Assembly (NCBI GenBank): GCA_031267485.1
Contig: JAIRYY010000048.1
Span: forward strand, 1-8,915
Source of the DNA: Tannerella sp.
Lineage (GTDB): Bacteria; Bacteroidota; Bacteroidia; Bacteroidales; Tannerellaceae
DNA: 8,915 bases
Direction of reading: 5' to 3'
Every line of letters starts with the position of its first letter. Position 1 is the stretch's first letter. Positions 2,590 through 8,824 of this stretch are shown here, in pieces. A program made the position numbers and the translations under genes. A model generated the notes under the pieces. That model was not told the DNA's origin. It saw only the letters and a list, made by a program, of their open reading frames with translations, and made no database searches.

Positions 2590-3951
2590 ATGGGAAAGTC
2601 TGAAAAAAGTAGGCAAGGTTTGGTTTATCGATTGTTCCGCGCGTATCTGCGTTCGGTGCATGACCTTTTCTTTTACAGGAAAGTCTATCGCGTCGGAGCG
2701 GAGAACATCCCGCCGGACGGTACGCCTGTTCTGATTGTTTCGAATCATCAAAATTGCCTGAACGACCCGCTGGCAGTCATTCTGTCGTTCAGGGACAGAA
2801 AACCGGGCGCGATTGTGCGTGCGGATGTCTTTGCAGTGCATCCGCTTATCGACAAATTTCTGCGGAAACTGGGTCTGCTGCCCGCCTACCGCCTTGATTT
2901 CGAAGGCGAAGAGTCGCTGGGCAAGAACAGGGAAATATTTAATGTTTCGGAGGAGGCGCTTGTCAACGGCCGGACGATACTGATGTACCCCGAAGGCGGA
3001 CATCAGGACAAACGCTGGCTCGGCGATTTTTCTTTGGGATATGCGAAAATGGCTTTTGAGGCGGCGGAACTCGACGGCTTCCGGACGGAAATATTCATAC
3101 TTCCTGCGTGCAATCACTATTCCGATTATTTTGACATTCAGAAGGACGTACTCGTCAAGTTCGGCACGCCCGTTTCGATAAAGCCCTATTACGAACTGTA
3201 CAAAAGCAAGCCGCGGACGGCGCAGCGGCAGGTGAATGTCATCGTGAGGGAACAGATTGCGGGAATGATGCTGAATATTACAGACCTCGACCATTACGGG
3301 GCGATTGATTTCCTGCGCGAAACGTACGGGTGGAAATATGCGGCGGAGCATGGCTACAGAGCCGCTTATCTGCCCGACAAACTGCTTTCCGACCGCGCTT
3401 TTTTCGAGGCGCTGAACGGCGCGAAATCGGAGGATGAGGCATTTGTCCGGCAGATTTACGTCGATGCGCTCCGGCTGAGGGATGAACTGGCGGGGCTGAA
3501 CATACGCGACGGACAGTTCGACCGCGTTCCGGGCCGGGGCATGATTGCCGCGTCGGCCGTTGCGCTGCTTGTCCTGCTGCCTGCATGGATACTGTCTCTG
3601 TGGCCGAATATAATCATTTACAAAGCGCCTCTGCTCGTTACGCGCCGCATGAAAGACAGGATGTTTCAAAATTCCTTTCTTTTCGGGATGAGCGTGCTGA
3701 TAACGATTCCGGTACTGTACGCGCTCACTTTTTTCGTGGCGCGGATGTACGTCCATATTGCCGTTGCGGCCGCGTATGTATTGCTGCTGCCGTATCTTGG
3801 CCTTTTTGCCTGGTACTACCGGAAATATGCCGTCCGGACGCTGCAGGACATGCGTTTTCGCCGCGCCGTTGCGGACGGAACAGATAAAATAAGCGGATTG
3901 AGGACGCTGCGCGCCGCTATTCATGAACGATTAAGTAAAATATTAAAATAA
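2590..3951 (+). CDS. PlsC-family (glycerolipid/lysophospholipid) acyltransferase with C-terminal membrane segments
   Basis: The 453-residue protein has a PlsC-like acyltransferase domain at about residues 30-200. The catalytic His is in SNHQNCLND (His53, Asp59). The acceptor-binding PEG motif reads YPEGGH (133-138), and the segment at 168-175 (IFILPACN) matches the last conserved block. His and Asp are separated by five residues, not the textbook four; to my memory this spacing also occurs in some Bacteroidota homologues. A helical middle region follows, then three hydrophobic segments at about 318-340, 363-383 and 388-409 with a basic C-terminus, so it is an inner-membrane protein facing the cytosol. 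The family moves acyl chains from ACP or CoA to (lyso)glycerolipids or related acceptors. It opens the run and ends 4 nt before the ketosynthase. It could lipidate the product of the locus or be a general phospholipid enzyme; the sequence does not decide. Confidence 0.85.
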   Translation: MGKSEKSRQGLVYRLFRAYLRSVHDLFFYRKVYRVGAENIPPDGTPVLIVSNHQNCLNDPLAVILSFRDRKPGAIVRADVFAVHPLIDKFLRKLGLLPAYRLDFEGEESLGKNREIFNVSEEALVNGRTILMYPEGGHQDKRWLGDFSLGYAKMAFEAAELDGFRTEIFILPACNHYSDYFDIQKDVLVKFGTPVSIKPYYELYKSKPRTAQRQVNVIVREQIAGMMLNITDLDHYGAIDFLRETYGWKYAAEHGYRAAYLPDKLLSDRAFFEALNGAKSEDEAFVRQIYVDALRLRDELAGLNIRDGQFDRVPGRGMIAASAVALLVLLPAWILSLWPNIIIYKAPLLVTRRMKDRMFQNSFLFGMSVLITIPVLYALTFFVARMYVHIAVAAAYVLLLPYLGLFAWYYRKYAVRTLQDMRFRRAVADGTDKISGLRTLRAAIHERLSKILK

Positions 3952-3955
3952 AAAA

Positions 3956-5179
3956 ATGAGCAATAAAAGAGTCGTTATAACGGGAATGGGAATCTATTCC
4001 TGTCTGGGAAAAAACCTTACGGAAGTTCGGGATTCGTTGTACAATGGGAGGTCGGGTATTATTTTTGACCCGGTCCGCAAGGAAATGGGTTTTCGCTCGG
4101 CGTTGACGGCCGCACTGGACGTCCCCGACCTGAAAAGCGTTTTGAGCAGGAATCAGCGCGTTTTCATGCCGGAACAGGCCAAATATGCGTATGTGGCAAC
4201 CGCGGAGGCGCTGGCCAATGCCGGACTTGACCGGGATTATCTGGATTCGCACGAGGTCGGCCTCTTTTACGGGAACGACAGTAGCGCCGATGCCGTCGTA
4301 AGGAGCGTGGACACGATGCGCGAGAAGAAAGACACGACGCTCATCGGTTCGGGAGCTATCTTCCAGTCGATGAATTCCACCGTGACGATGAATCTTTCCT
4401 GCCTGTTCAAGCTGAGAGGGATGAACATGACGGTTTCGGCCGCCTGTGCAAGCGGGTCGCATGCCATTGGACTGGGCGCCCTGCTGATACGGAACGGCCT
4501 GCAGGATATCGTCGTTTGCGGCGGGGCGCAGGAGGTCAATCCGTTTTCCATAGGCAGTTTTGACGGAATCAGCGCGTTTTCCGTCCGCGAGAACGAACCG
4601 GCCAAGGCTTCGCGTCCTTTCGACCGCGACCGCGACGGCCTGGTGCCCGGCGGAGGCGCGGCAACCGTGATTATCGAAGAATATGAATCTGCGGTCAGGC
4701 GCGGCGCGCCTGTCATTGCGGAGGTGCTGGGTTACGGCTTCTCGTCGAACGGCGACCATATTTCGGTGCCGAACGTGGACGGTCCGGCGCGTTCGCTCCG
4801 GATGGCGATTCGCGAATCGGGCATCGACATACGCCGGATTGGATACGTCAATGCACATGCCACTTCCACGCCGGTAGGCGACCGGAACGAGGCGCGCGCG
4901 ATAGATTCCGTCTTCGGCGATTACAAGCCCGAAATCACATCGACCAAATCGCAGACCGGACACGAGATGTGGATGGCCGGAGCAAGCGAAATCATCTATT
5001 CCACGCTGATGATGAAAAACGGCTTCATCGCTCCCAACCTGAATTTTGAAAATCCGGACGATGCTTCCGAAAAATTAAACATACCGGCCGGACGCGTGGA
5101 GAAACATTTCGATGTGTTCCTTTCCAATTCTTTCGGATTCGGAGGAACAAATTCCACGCTTATCATAAAAGATTTATAA
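3956..5179 (+). CDS. Beta-ketoacyl-ACP synthase (FabB/FabF-type ketosynthase)
   Basis: This enzyme would extend an ACP-bound acyl chain by decarboxylative Claisen condensation with malonyl-ACP. The 407 residues are full length for the family. Active-site Cys164 lies in VSAACASGSHA, His301 in NAHATSTPVGD, Lys331 in TKSQTGHE, His336 directly after, and the terminal GFGGTNS loop at 394-400. The complete Cys-His-His triad plus Lys means this is a condensing subunit, not a chain-length factor. The TGHEMWMAGASE segment and NAHATSTPVGD look more FabB-like than FabF-like. It follows the acyltransferase after 4 nt of A residues and is followed after 51 nt by the ACP gene. Placed with an ACP, two hotdog proteins and an MMPL exporter, it is more likely a dedicated secondary-pathway synthase (aryl polyene/flexirubin type) than the housekeeping FabF. 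No partner ketosynthase is visible in the window. Confidence 0.93.
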   Translation: MSNKRVVITGMGIYSCLGKNLTEVRDSLYNGRSGIIFDPVRKEMGFRSALTAALDVPDLKSVLSRNQRVFMPEQAKYAYVATAEALANAGLDRDYLDSHEVGLFYGNDSSADAVVRSVDTMREKKDTTLIGSGAIFQSMNSTVTMNLSCLFKLRGMNMTVSAACASGSHAIGLGALLIRNGLQDIVVCGGAQEVNPFSIGSFDGISAFSVRENEPAKASRPFDRDRDGLVPGGGAATVIIEEYESAVRRGAPVIAEVLGYGFSSNGDHISVPNVDGPARSLRMAIRESGIDIRRIGYVNAHATSTPVGDRNEARAIDSVFGDYKPEITSTKSQTGHEMWMAGASEIIYSTLMMKNGFIAPNLNFENPDDASEKLNIPAGRVEKHFDVFLSNSFGFGGTNSTLIIKDL

Positions 5180-5230: not shown

Positions 5231-5482
5231 ATGGAAAGACAAAAATTAGTAGAAAAAATAAACAAAGTTTTAGCCGACGAATTTGAAGTGGAGGTCAGTG
5301 AAATCACGCCTGACGCCAACATAAAGAAAACGCTGCAGCTCGACAGCCTCAGTCTTGTTGACATGGTTGCATTGATTGAAGAAAATTTCAGCGTCAGCAT
5401 TAAAGGCGCTGAAGTGGCAAACATCCAGACGTTCGGTTCGCTGTACGAATTTGTTTTTGACCGCATGCAACAGAAACAGTAA
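5231..5482 (+). CDS. Acyl carrier protein
   Basis: This is a small acidic four-helix-type carrier protein of 83 residues that would hold the growing acyl chain on a 4'-phosphopantetheine arm attached by a phosphopantetheinyl transferase. The attachment site is Ser39 in the motif LDSLSLVDM (37-45), preceded by a typical helix I with DANIKKTLQ before it. The canonical hydrophobic pattern continues through VALIEENFSVSI and a final helix to residue 80. It differs clearly from the conserved housekeeping AcpP motif (DSLDTVEL), consistent with a pathway-dedicated carrier for the adjacent ketosynthase and dehydratases. Its stop codon overlaps the next start by one base (TAATG at 5480-5484), so translation of the two is probably coupled. 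Confidence 0.93.
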   Translation: MERQKLVEKINKVLADEFEVEVSEITPDANIKKTLQLDSLSLVDMVALIEENFSVSIKGAEVANIQTFGSLYEFVFDRMQQKQ

Positions 5483-5907
5483 TGGCTGAAATCAGAGGAG
5501 AAGACATAAAGGAACTTATCCCGCAACGCGAGCCGGCCATTCTGGTCGACGCTTTTTACGGGGCTACCGAATCGGAGGCGGACACGGGACTTGTCGTTTC
5601 GGACGATACGATGTTCTGCAGCAGGGGATGCCTTGAGGAGCCCGGACTGGTGGAACATGTCGCGCAGTCGGCTTCGGCGTTTGCCGGGTACAGGGCGAAA
5701 ATCGAAAACAGGCCCGCTCCGGTAGGATTCCTTGCCGAAGTCAGAAAGTTCCGCATCCACTTCCTGCCGCACGTCGGCGACAGATTATGCACGCACATTC
5801 ATGTCGTGTCGGAAGCGCTCGGCGTGTCCCTGCTTACGGCCGAGACGAAAGTCAACGGAGAGGTCGCCGCCTGCGGCCAGTTGAAAATCTACATCAAACC
5901 GTCATGA
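5482..5907 (+). CDS. Hotdog-fold dehydratase-like protein (ApeP-like), catalytic Glu but no visible His
   Basis: This 141-residue protein belongs to the FabA/FabZ hotdog group. The N-terminal LIPQREPAILVDAF (12-25) parallels the FabZ IPHRPPFLLVD segment. GLVEHVAQSASAFAG (55-69) parallels the FabZ central helix LEAMAQATG, so Glu58 aligns with the catalytic Glu of FabZ. The HFPG motif that carries the catalytic His is not present: the matching stretch reads MFCSRGCLEEPG (44-55) with two cysteines. This resembles the ApeP-type dehydratases of aryl polyene loci, which act on 3-hydroxyacyl-ACP to give 2-enoyl-ACP. Overlaps of 1 nt upstream and 4 nt downstream suggest coupled synthesis with the ACP and the second hotdog protein. 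Substrate and catalytic competence on its own are uncertain; a structural partner role is the main alternative. Confidence 0.75.
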   Translation: MAEIRGEDIKELIPQREPAILVDAFYGATESEADTGLVVSDDTMFCSRGCLEEPGLVEHVAQSASAFAGYRAKIENRPAPVGFLAEVRKFRIHFLPHVGDRLCTHIHVVSEALGVSLLTAETKVNGEVAACGQLKIYIKPS

Positions 5908-6281
5908 TAACCCTTCTTGATGATTATTACAAAATAGACGGACGGACGGCGGAGGATGACGGCGTCCTGTTCCGCGTGACCCTGTTGCCGGAACATCGCG
6001 TTTATGCCGGGCATTTCCCCGGCAGGCCTGTTTCTCCCGGCGTATGCAGCATCCAGATGATAAAGGAATGTGCCGGGCTGCTGACCGGGAAACGTCTTTT
6101 TCTCGGTTATATCTCTCAATGCAGGTTGCCGGCCGTCATAACGCCGCAAACCGCGCCGCAGTTACAAATCCGCATGCAGCTGTCCGAAACGGACGGAACG
6201 GCGTACAGGGTTCGCGCGACGGTGAGCGACGGCACGACAACGTATGTGGAATTTAAAGGCGAACTTACTCCCGTGCAATGA
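5904..6281 (+). CDS. FabZ/ApeI-like hotdog dehydratase, catalytic His but Gln at the Glu position
   Basis: This is a 125-residue single hotdog domain. The motif GHFPGRPVSPGV (36-47) matches the FabZ/FabA active-site loop, with His37 as the catalytic base. The residue 14 positions later, where FabZ has Glu, is Gln51. The expected role is dehydration of 3-hydroxyacyl-ACP, or a related (thioesterase-like) hotdog activity, during chain extension. The frame is open further upstream (to 5787), but only the ATG at 5904 makes sense: it gives an ATGA overlap with the preceding stop and starts just before the hotdog fold (ITLLDDYYKID). Its own stop overlaps the exporter start by 4 nt (ATGA at 6278-6281). 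The protein is intact for a short FabZ-like or ApeI-like member; which activity it has cannot be told from the sequence alone. Confidence 0.78.
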   Translation: MITLLDDYYKIDGRTAEDDGVLFRVTLLPEHRVYAGHFPGRPVSPGVCSIQMIKECAGLLTGKRLFLGYISQCRLPAVITPQTAPQLQIRMQLSETDGTAYRVRATVSDGTTTYVEFKGELTPVQ

Positions 6282-8824
6282 CTGTCTTCTTTATCACCCT
6301 GTTCAATTACTTCCGTAAACGCAAAACCGCTCTTTATGCATTGATGTTTCTGTCGTTCGGACTGTTTATCTTCTTCGGATTGAAACTCACATACGAAGAG
6401 GATATATCGAAACTGTTGCCTTCGACGGACGACACAAAGGCCGAAGGGCTGGTCTTTTCGGAACTCAAGGTAAAGGATAAAATATTTGTTCAGCTGTTTT
6501 CCCGGAGCGGCGCTGCGGAGGCGGATTTGTTGATTGAGGCAGGCGACATGTTTGTCGATACGCTGCTGAGATATGACGGGACGGACGGCGATGTGGGGGA
6601 TATCCTGTACCGGGTGGACGATGAAATCCGGCAGCGGGTACTGTCGTATGCGCTGGAAAATGTCCCAATATTGCTCGATACCGGACTGTACGGGAAGATG
6701 GATTCGCTGACGGACAGGGAAAACATATACCGGCAGATGGCGGAAAATTCGGAAAAAATAGCCTCGCCGGAGGGCGTCGTGCTATACCGTATCATGCGCT
6801 ATGACCCGCTTAACCTGCGCTCCGTTCTTTTTGCCGGCATCGGCGGCGGCGACGGGAACGGCGGAAACGGTACCGGCGGCGGCGGGTTCGGCGGCGGGTT
6901 CGGCGTGGAGAAAATGCTGGGGGGAAGCTGGCTGACGTACGGAGACCATCTGTTTACTTCCGACACCACGGTTGCGCTTGTTTTCGTGTCGCCCAATTTC
7001 ATCTCGTTCGATTCCAAAACCGGCACCCGGCTTGTCAACAAGATAGAACGTGCGATCAGGCAGGTGGAAGCCGTTTATCCGGACGTGGAAGTCCTGTTTC
7101 ACGGCCCTCCCGTTCAGAGCGTGTTCAACTCGAGGCAGATAAAACGGGATTTGGCGCTGACAATGGGATTTTCGCTCCTGCTTGCCTGCCTGCTCATCGT
7201 GATTTGTTTCCGCAACAAGTCGACGCTGCCGATGCTGCTGCTGCCGGTAGCCTACGGAGCTTTCCTTGCGCTGGCCTGCATGTTCCTGCTGCAGGGCATG
7301 ATGTCGTTGATGGCGCTTGGCATCGGCGCCGTAATTCTGGGGGTTGCGCTGAGCTATTGCCTGCATGTGATTACGCATTTCAAATACCTGACAGACCCGG
7401 CGCTGGTGTTGCGCGATCAGGTCAAGCCCATCATACTCGGAAGCCTCACCACTATCGGAGCGTTCATGGGACTTGTGTTTACGCAATCGGCGCTGCTCCG
7501 CGACTTCGGCCTGTTCGCCTCGCTGGCAATGGTCGGGACGACGGTGGCCTGCCTGCTTTTCCTCCCGCATCTGTTCCCGTATGTCCACAACCGCCGTTCC
7601 GAAAGAGCCTTTGCCGTGCTCGAAAAAATCAACACCTGTCCGCTCGACCGTCAGCCGTGGCTGCTTGTCCTGATAGCGGTCGTGTTCGTCGCCTGCCTGT
7701 TCACGTCGTCGGACGTCAAATTCGACGCGAATCTGCGGAACATCGGATACCACGAACCGTCCGTGACGCGGTCGGCGGCGCTGTATGCCGAAAAAACCTC
7801 GCGGGGACTGGCCGTCAGCTATTATGCCGCCACGTCCGCCGACCTGGATTCGGCGCTGGTCTGCAACATCGAAGTGAGCCGCGTCTGCGATTCCCTCCTG
7901 ACGGCCGGCAAGATACGCGGCTACACCCGCTCGTCGGCGATTTTATTGCCCGAAGCCGAACAGGAAAAACGCATCGCGGCATGGAAAAGTTACTGGAGCG
8001 GCGAACGCCTGGACGAACTGAAACGCGACGTGATTGCCGCAGGCGAGGCCAACAGATTCCGCCCGGCGATGTTCGACCCTTTTTTCGAAATGATATCGAA
8101 AGACTATGCGCCCTCCTCCGTTTACGAATCGTCCGTCCTGCCCGCAAGCCTTATGGCGAACATGATAGAACACTCCCAGGGGATGTATCTCGTCTACACG
8201 TCGGTGCAGCTGGAGGAGGAGAACCGGAAAGAGGTGAACGACATCCTTGCGTCGCAGCGGAACGTGATTGTGGCCGACCCGTTCTATTACACCACAAACA
8301 TGGTTGAGTTGATGCACGGCGACTTCAACATGATACTCGGCATCTCCTCGCTCTTCGTGCTGCTGGTCTTAATATTTTCCTTTCGCAGCATACCGCTGGC
8401 GCTAATCGCGTTCCTGCCGATGAGCATGAGCTGGTACATCGTGCTGGGCATCATGGCGATGCTGGGGCTGCAATTCAACCTCATCAACATCGTCATATCG
8501 ACGTTCATCTTCGGGATAGGCGTCGATTACAGCATTTTCGTGATGGAAGGGCTGCTTGCCGGCATGAAAGGCGAGGACGGAAAGCTGCTGACGTATCACA
8601 AGACGGCCATCTTCCTCTCCGCCGTAGTCCTGATCATAAGCGTCTCGTCGCTCATGTTCGCCCGTCATCCCGCGCTTGCATCCATCGGCGTGGCGACGCT
8701 CACCGGCATGACCTCCACGCTGCTTATCGCCTACTCCCTGCAGCCGTTCCTCTTCCGCCTGCTGCTAAAAACGCGCTCTGCCGACATCCTCCGGAAACGG
8801 ATGAAAAAAACTTTTAATTCTTAA
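6278..8824 (+). CDS. MMPL/RND-superfamily exporter (12 TM)
   Basis: The 848-residue inner-membrane transporter has the duplicated RND layout. TM1 is at about 18-35, followed by a large periplasmic loop to about 290 and TM2-6 between about 293 and 433. A cytosolic linker follows, then TM7 at about 459-476, a second periplasmic loop to about 683, and TM8-12 between about 685 and 829. The second half carries the family motif GIGVDYSIF with Asp750-Tyr751 in TM10, the expected proton-relay pair. The equivalent position in TM4 reads GVALSYCLH, with Ser359-Tyr360 instead of Asp-Tyr. A Gly-rich insertion occupies 187-209 of the first loop. MMPL proteins move lipids and polyketide-like products to the cell envelope using proton motive force; here the substrate would be the acyl or polyene product of the neighbouring genes. 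Its start overlaps the upstream stop (ATGA), and its end lies in a 14-nt tandem repeat. Confidence 0.88.
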   Translation: MTVFFITLFNYFRKRKTALYALMFLSFGLFIFFGLKLTYEEDISKLLPSTDDTKAEGLVFSELKVKDKIFVQLFSRSGAAEADLLIEAGDMFVDTLLRYDGTDGDVGDILYRVDDEIRQRVLSYALENVPILLDTGLYGKMDSLTDRENIYRQMAENSEKIASPEGVVLYRIMRYDPLNLRSVLFAGIGGGDGNGGNGTGGGGFGGGFGVEKMLGGSWLTYGDHLFTSDTTVALVFVSPNFISFDSKTGTRLVNKIERAIRQVEAVYPDVEVLFHGPPVQSVFNSRQIKRDLALTMGFSLLLACLLIVICFRNKSTLPMLLLPVAYGAFLALACMFLLQGMMSLMALGIGAVILGVALSYCLHVITHFKYLTDPALVLRDQVKPIILGSLTTIGAFMGLVFTQSALLRDFGLFASLAMVGTTVACLLFLPHLFPYVHNRRSERAFAVLEKINTCPLDRQPWLLVLIAVVFVACLFTSSDVKFDANLRNIGYHEPSVTRSAALYAEKTSRGLAVSYYAATSADLDSALVCNIEVSRVCDSLLTAGKIRGYTRSSAILLPEAEQEKRIAAWKSYWSGERLDELKRDVIAAGEANRFRPAMFDPFFEMISKDYAPSSVYESSVLPASLMANMIEHSQGMYLVYTSVQLEEENRKEVNDILASQRNVIVADPFYYTTNMVELMHGDFNMILGISSLFVLLVLIFSFRSIPLALIAFLPMSMSWYIVLGIMAMLGLQFNLINIVISTFIFGIGVDYSIFVMEGLLAGMKGEDGKLLTYHKTAIFLSAVVLIISVSSLMFARHPALASIGVATLTGMTSTLLIAYSLQPFLFRLLLKTRSADILRKRMKKTFNS
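6878..6901 (+). repeat. 12-bp perfect tandem duplication in the exporter gene
   Basis: GGCGGCGGGTTC occurs twice in direct succession (6878-6889 and 6890-6901). It encodes Gly-Gly-Gly-Phe twice (residues 201-208) at the end of a longer Gly/Asn-rich stretch (about 6836-6904). Being a multiple of three it keeps the frame, so copy number could vary without breaking the gene. Confidence 0.9.

Follow-up and report, generated by a model that had tools for sequence, protein, structure and literature searches.

A split FabZ-like dehydratase site predicted for the ApeP-like and ApeI-like proteins of a Tannerella sp. aryl-polyene-type gene cluster

In FabZ chemistry a histidine takes the alpha proton and an acidic residue assists the departure of the 3-hydroxyl. 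The dehydratase domains of type I PKS and FAS are double hotdogs, with the histidine in one half and an aspartate in the other; unlike these, the two hotdog proteins considered here are encoded by separate ORFs and not as one polypeptide. The closest described system is represented by PDB entry 6QSR, whose linked publication we take to be a J. Am. Chem. Soc. paper of 2019. The entry is titled 'The Dehydratase Heterocomplex ApeI:P from Xenorhabdus doucetiae', the part of PMC8041823 available to us describes a single active site in ApeI/ApeP, and the accessible part of PMC8253772 reports stable heterocomplexes formed by several X. doucetiae Ape enzymes, with no statement there on pigment loss upon deletion of either apeI or apeP in E. 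coli. A second precedent is HadAB of mycobacteria, a two-hotdog heterodimer with one active site in which, according to an excerpt of PMC4491049, the whole His-Asp dyad lies on HadB. Given the solved ApeI:P complex and HadAB, the arrangement that an earlier note on this DNA had inferred, one dehydratase site built from two adjacent hotdog subunits, is of a known kind. The excerpts of PMC12141560, PMC12664062 and PMC3691225 available to us hold nothing on the ApeI/ApeP pair, and among open-licence papers we found no discussion of the Gln of Bacteroidia ApeI, which is no proof of its absence from print.

The window, by which we mean the whole 8,915-nucleotide stretch of DNA that was analysed, has Tannerella sp. 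genomes as its closest named relatives and carries an operon on the forward strand. Around the two hotdog genes this operon encodes an acyltransferase (2590..3951, PF01553), a beta-ketoacyl synthase (3956..5179, PF00109 and PF02801), an acyl carrier protein (5231..5482, PF00550) and an MMPL/RND-type exporter (6278..8824, PF03176). The first hotdog protein is a 141-residue ORF at 5482..5907 and the second a 125-residue ORF at 5904..6281 that opens with an in-frame Met at 5904, both on the forward strand. By their precomputed Pfam version-3 labels (PF22817.3 and PF22818.3, respectively) and by their residue columns, they are an ApeP-like and an ApeI-like protein from an aryl-polyene-type type II PKS cluster. 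In a profile scan with another Pfam version the ApeI-like protein scored 16.7 bits against a PF22818 cut-off of 28.5 and the ApeP-like protein went unscored; a search of the window's own genome with the PF22818 profile, in this version that scores the ApeI-like protein below its cut-off, gave no matches. The ApeI-like protein narrowly passes the Pfam cut-off for FabA (24.2 versus 23 bits), and NCBIfam returns weak FabZ similarity for both proteins. Against PDB sequences the ApeI profile ranks 6qsr_A first among 33 (E 2.3e-9), while the ApeP profile places FabZ chains on top and 6qsr_B at rank 19 of 21 (E 0.0014).

A check of the codons bore out the residues and the numbering of the earlier note. 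The ApeP-like protein carries Glu58 (GAA, 5653-5655) within GLVEHVAQ, the glutamate being followed by xxAQ like that of FabZ, and its His column is occupied by Met44 (ATG, 5611-5613), so that the catalytic histidine is absent. The ApeI-like protein carries His37 (CAT, 6012-6014) within GHFPG and, 14 residues further on at the position of the FabZ glutamate, Gln51 (CAG, 6054-6056). The fold is that of FabZ, with the two FabZ motifs divided one per protein; whereas each chain of the FabZ homodimer holds both residues, the ApeP-like protein lacks the His and the ApeI-like protein lacks the Glu. Comparison with the ApeI:P relatives, namely 6QSR and the ApeI and ApeP of E. coli CFT073 and Acinetobacter baumannii, finds the same combination of a hotdog that has the His with a hotdog that has the Glu but no His, which in ApeI:P was solved as a heterocomplex. 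Unlike the proteobacterial ApeIs (E. coli ApeI, 3esi and 6qsr_A), which have Asp in the acid column, the ApeI-like protein of the window has Gln, and its gene adjoins that of its partner where the two are ~6.7 kb apart in E. coli. As in HadAB, a hotdog heterodimer with one site is predicted, but unlike in HadAB the dyad would be shared; the hydratase 2 motif quoted in the excerpt of PMC4491049, Asp and His in one chain, is absent by eye from both window proteins. Judged on its sequence, we regard this locus as a clear new example of an already known arrangement, the difference being a Bacteroidia ApeI without the proteobacterial Asp.

We propose that the ApeP-like protein, with Glu58 and no catalytic His, and the ApeI-like protein, with His37 and Gln51, very probably pair 1:1 as a dimer of the FabZ type, whose one composite site would dehydrate 3-hydroxyacyl-ACP during polyene-type lipid synthesis, a model whose dimer, reaction and product class are all extrapolated from relatives. 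The alpha proton of the 3-hydroxyacyl-ACP would be abstracted by the ApeI residue His37 and departure of the 3-hydroxyl assisted by the ApeP residue Glu58, while the mirror site, in which Met44 would face Gln51, is expected to be dead.

The residues on which this model is built are conserved in a complementary manner. Glu58 is present in 120 of 120 ApeP homologues (120 listed of 225 matches, the window protein included), and none of these 120 has His in column 44, which holds Leu, Met, Ile, Phe or Tyr. Of 112 ApeI homologues, 111 retain His37 and one has Asn instead; at position 51, 108 of the 112 have Gln and the other 4 have Glu. To reach past close relatives, both family profiles were run against 247 Bacteroidia genomes, with strong matches taken at E < 1e-16 for ApeP and E < 1e-10 for ApeI; the next matches were well separated (E 1.1e-8 and weaker), FabZ-like and mostly in open frames of at least 460 residues. 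Columns were read in the strong matches outside the window's own genome, minus one ApeI fragment (G182:C117). The surveyed ApePs carry the Glu in 54 of 54 and a column His in 0 of 54, the 55th being a fragment without coverage of the site, and the surveyed ApeIs carry the His in 50 of 50; their position 51 is Gln in 40, Glu in 4, Arg in 3, Lys in 2 and His in 1, and is thus non-acid in 46 of 50. Column entropy within the families is zero at Glu58 and at His37, against 1.95 bits at column 44 and 1.09 bits at column 51, and as a control 20 of 20 FabZs from the surveyed genomes carry His and Glu within one chain. Since ApeP has a shorter loop than FabZ, the residue of ApeP equivalent to the FabZ His is alignment-dependent; 20 of the 55 surveyed ApePs have some His between columns 36 and 57 (column 43 in 11 and column 38 in 7), at a place that is not conserved.

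The same columns weigh on two other explanations. Two independent homodimers with non-canonical residues, Gln51 in ApeI and an ApeP without His, might act on different substrates, as the separate ORFs would permit, and ApeI homodimers could conceivably have complete sites where the acid column holds Glu (the ApeIs of L019, L029, L031, L090 and L096) or Asp (E. coli ApeI and 6qsr_A); one genome, G055, moreover has ApeP with no ApeI found. We nevertheless hold this to be very improbable, given that the surveyed ApePs lack the column His throughout yet all have the Glu, that position 51 of ApeI has also become Arg, Lys or His, none of which is compatible with an acid role, and that a relative was solved as a heterocomplex. 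Just as little probability attaches to the notion that ApeI alone is catalytic and ApeP a structural or ACP-docking partner with a non-catalytic Glu58: the HadAB excerpt (PMC4491049) describes roles divided in this way, HadB holding the dyad, but Glu58 of ApeP is invariant and has the xxAQ that also comes after the FabZ glutamate, and an ApeI acting alone would have no acid in 46 of 50 cases.

Across many genomes, sequence alone shows that the one-site ApeI:P pattern prevails in the surveyed Bacteroidia and that the ApeI acid is dispensable there. With the ApeI Asp missing in most Bacteroidia, the homodimer fallback that might exist for an Asp-bearing ApeI is gone and the split is cleaner. We lean towards the further view that Bacteroidia ApeI has lost the acid entirely (Gln, Arg, Lys or His), such that neither protein would work alone and only the mixed pair would make a site, and that the two pairs in the window's own genome would then have to sort their partners. 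Position 51 can, by its residues, still carry an acid, as in four surveyed ApeIs and that of L019. In these five ApeIs (L019, L029, L031, L090 and L096) both catalytic residues lie in one chain. The idea in the earlier note that the residues might covary across homologous loci found no signal between ApeI position 51 and ApeP, as the ApePs of the five genomes with a Glu-bearing ApeI (L019, L029, L031, L089 and L095) are unchanged, with the Glu kept and no column His.

Both genes also tend to be present together. Across the 247 Bacteroidia genomes a strong ApeP occurs in 51 and a strong ApeI in 51, with both in 48 and neither in 193. The ApeP-only genomes are G197 (60% complete), G217 (78%) and G055 (98%), and the ApeI-only genomes are G224 (78%), G210 (68%) and G152 (78%). 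The occurrence of one gene alone, which the earlier note had named as evidence against a shared site, is therefore seen in 6 of 54 genomes. Completeness does not exceed 78% in five of them; G055 stands, since a second search of that 98% complete genome with an ApeI from the same genus found none, leaving one real-looking exception to the co-occurrence. The ApeI of L014 has no neighbouring ApeP, and an ApeP is present elsewhere in that genome. As co-occurrence is to be expected of genes that share a cluster, this pattern supports the pair without proving a dimer. The claim that a His subunit and a Glu subunit make one site is supported by complementary conservation together with co-occurrence (48 with both versus 3 + 3), by 6QSR and by the accessible part of PMC8041823. 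Five loci (L058, L059, L060, L061 and L062, of G195, G025, G066, G102 and G022) have tandem ApeP-like genes beside a single ApeI; both tandem ApePs have the Glu and lack the His, giving two possible Glu partners per His subunit.

The two ORFs do overlap by 4 nt, at the ATGA of 5904..5907 on the forward strand, but the coupled synthesis that had been argued from this overlap we reject, as comparison with relatives marks the overlap as lineage-specific. A thioesterase-type ORF lies between the ApeP and ApeI genes in L007, L008, L009, L012, L015, L017, L021 and L022 (4HBT by Pfam for the L008 copy, by likeness and by eye for the other copies), the genes adjoin with a short spacer in L005, L006, L010, L011 and L013, and they are on different contigs in, for example, G004, G065, G077, G134 and G247. 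Furthermore, the operon is tightly packed, the ACP/ApeP and ApeI/MMPL overlaps being 1 nt and 4 nt, and in this setting nothing particular can be read from the ATGA overlap. Window positions 5890-5925 resemble positions 5965-6015 of L006 minus 22 nt between two ATGA copies. As this difference is bounded by ATGA, the 4-nt overlap may have arisen by a small deletion relative to an L006-like sequence. No natural ApeP-ApeI fusion was noticed among the loci read.

An ApeP-ApeI read-through from L006, a close relative, was modelled in two runs; the one with pTM 0.83 folded as a double hotdog resembling dehydratases, the one with pTM 0.65 did not. Alignments that combined ApeP, ApeI and read-through rows (A3 and A5) were dropped, the ApeI rows having fallen on the ApeP half. 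The read-through model is matched equally well by double-hotdog thioesterases and dehydratases, and AmcE of cispentacin synthesis is described in an excerpt of PMC10698177 as a FabZ-like hotdog protein that decarboxylates, both of which would suit a pair with some other hotdog activity, such as that of a thioesterase or decarboxylase. Of the explanations considered we give this one the least credence, as the KS and ACP of the window and the KR and LolA of L015 fit a reducing type II PKS in need of a dehydratase, and relatives, like a second cluster, have a thioesterase-type gene apart from the pair. Of the features of an aryl polyene cluster, KS, ACP and MMPL are found in the window together with the predicted dehydratase pair, and further aryl polyene companions are seen in relatives, a thioesterase-type gene in L008 and KR with LolA in L015. 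No chain length factor or starter acyl-ACP synthetase (ApeC, ApeH) was noticed in the window or among the ORF starts of 15 related loci, contigs and loci that end early. The pair likely belongs to an aryl-polyene-like lipid pathway.

For annotation, a pair of FabZ-like genes in a cluster of this kind likely represents one enzyme and not two. The pair further offers a clean system in which to study split active sites, and the outcome of a single substitution in each subunit is clearly predicted. Finally, the window's own genome holds a second split pair, on C192 and C296, with Glu and Leu in ApeP' and His and Gln in ApeI', which sits among other type II PKS genes and makes partner choice between two paralogous pairs testable in one cell. 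A search of the own genome for the intervening thioesterase gave its only match in this second cluster. ApeI' (L025 1994-3166, C296) is the N-terminal ApeI-like domain of a 390-residue ORF near LolA, the remainder of which is glycosyltransferase-like by eye. In L008 an FAD-dependent oxidoreductase-like gene (8876-10369; Pfam Amino_oxidase and NAD_binding_8) follows the MMPL exporter, and ORFs with a similar start come after MMPL in other relatives.
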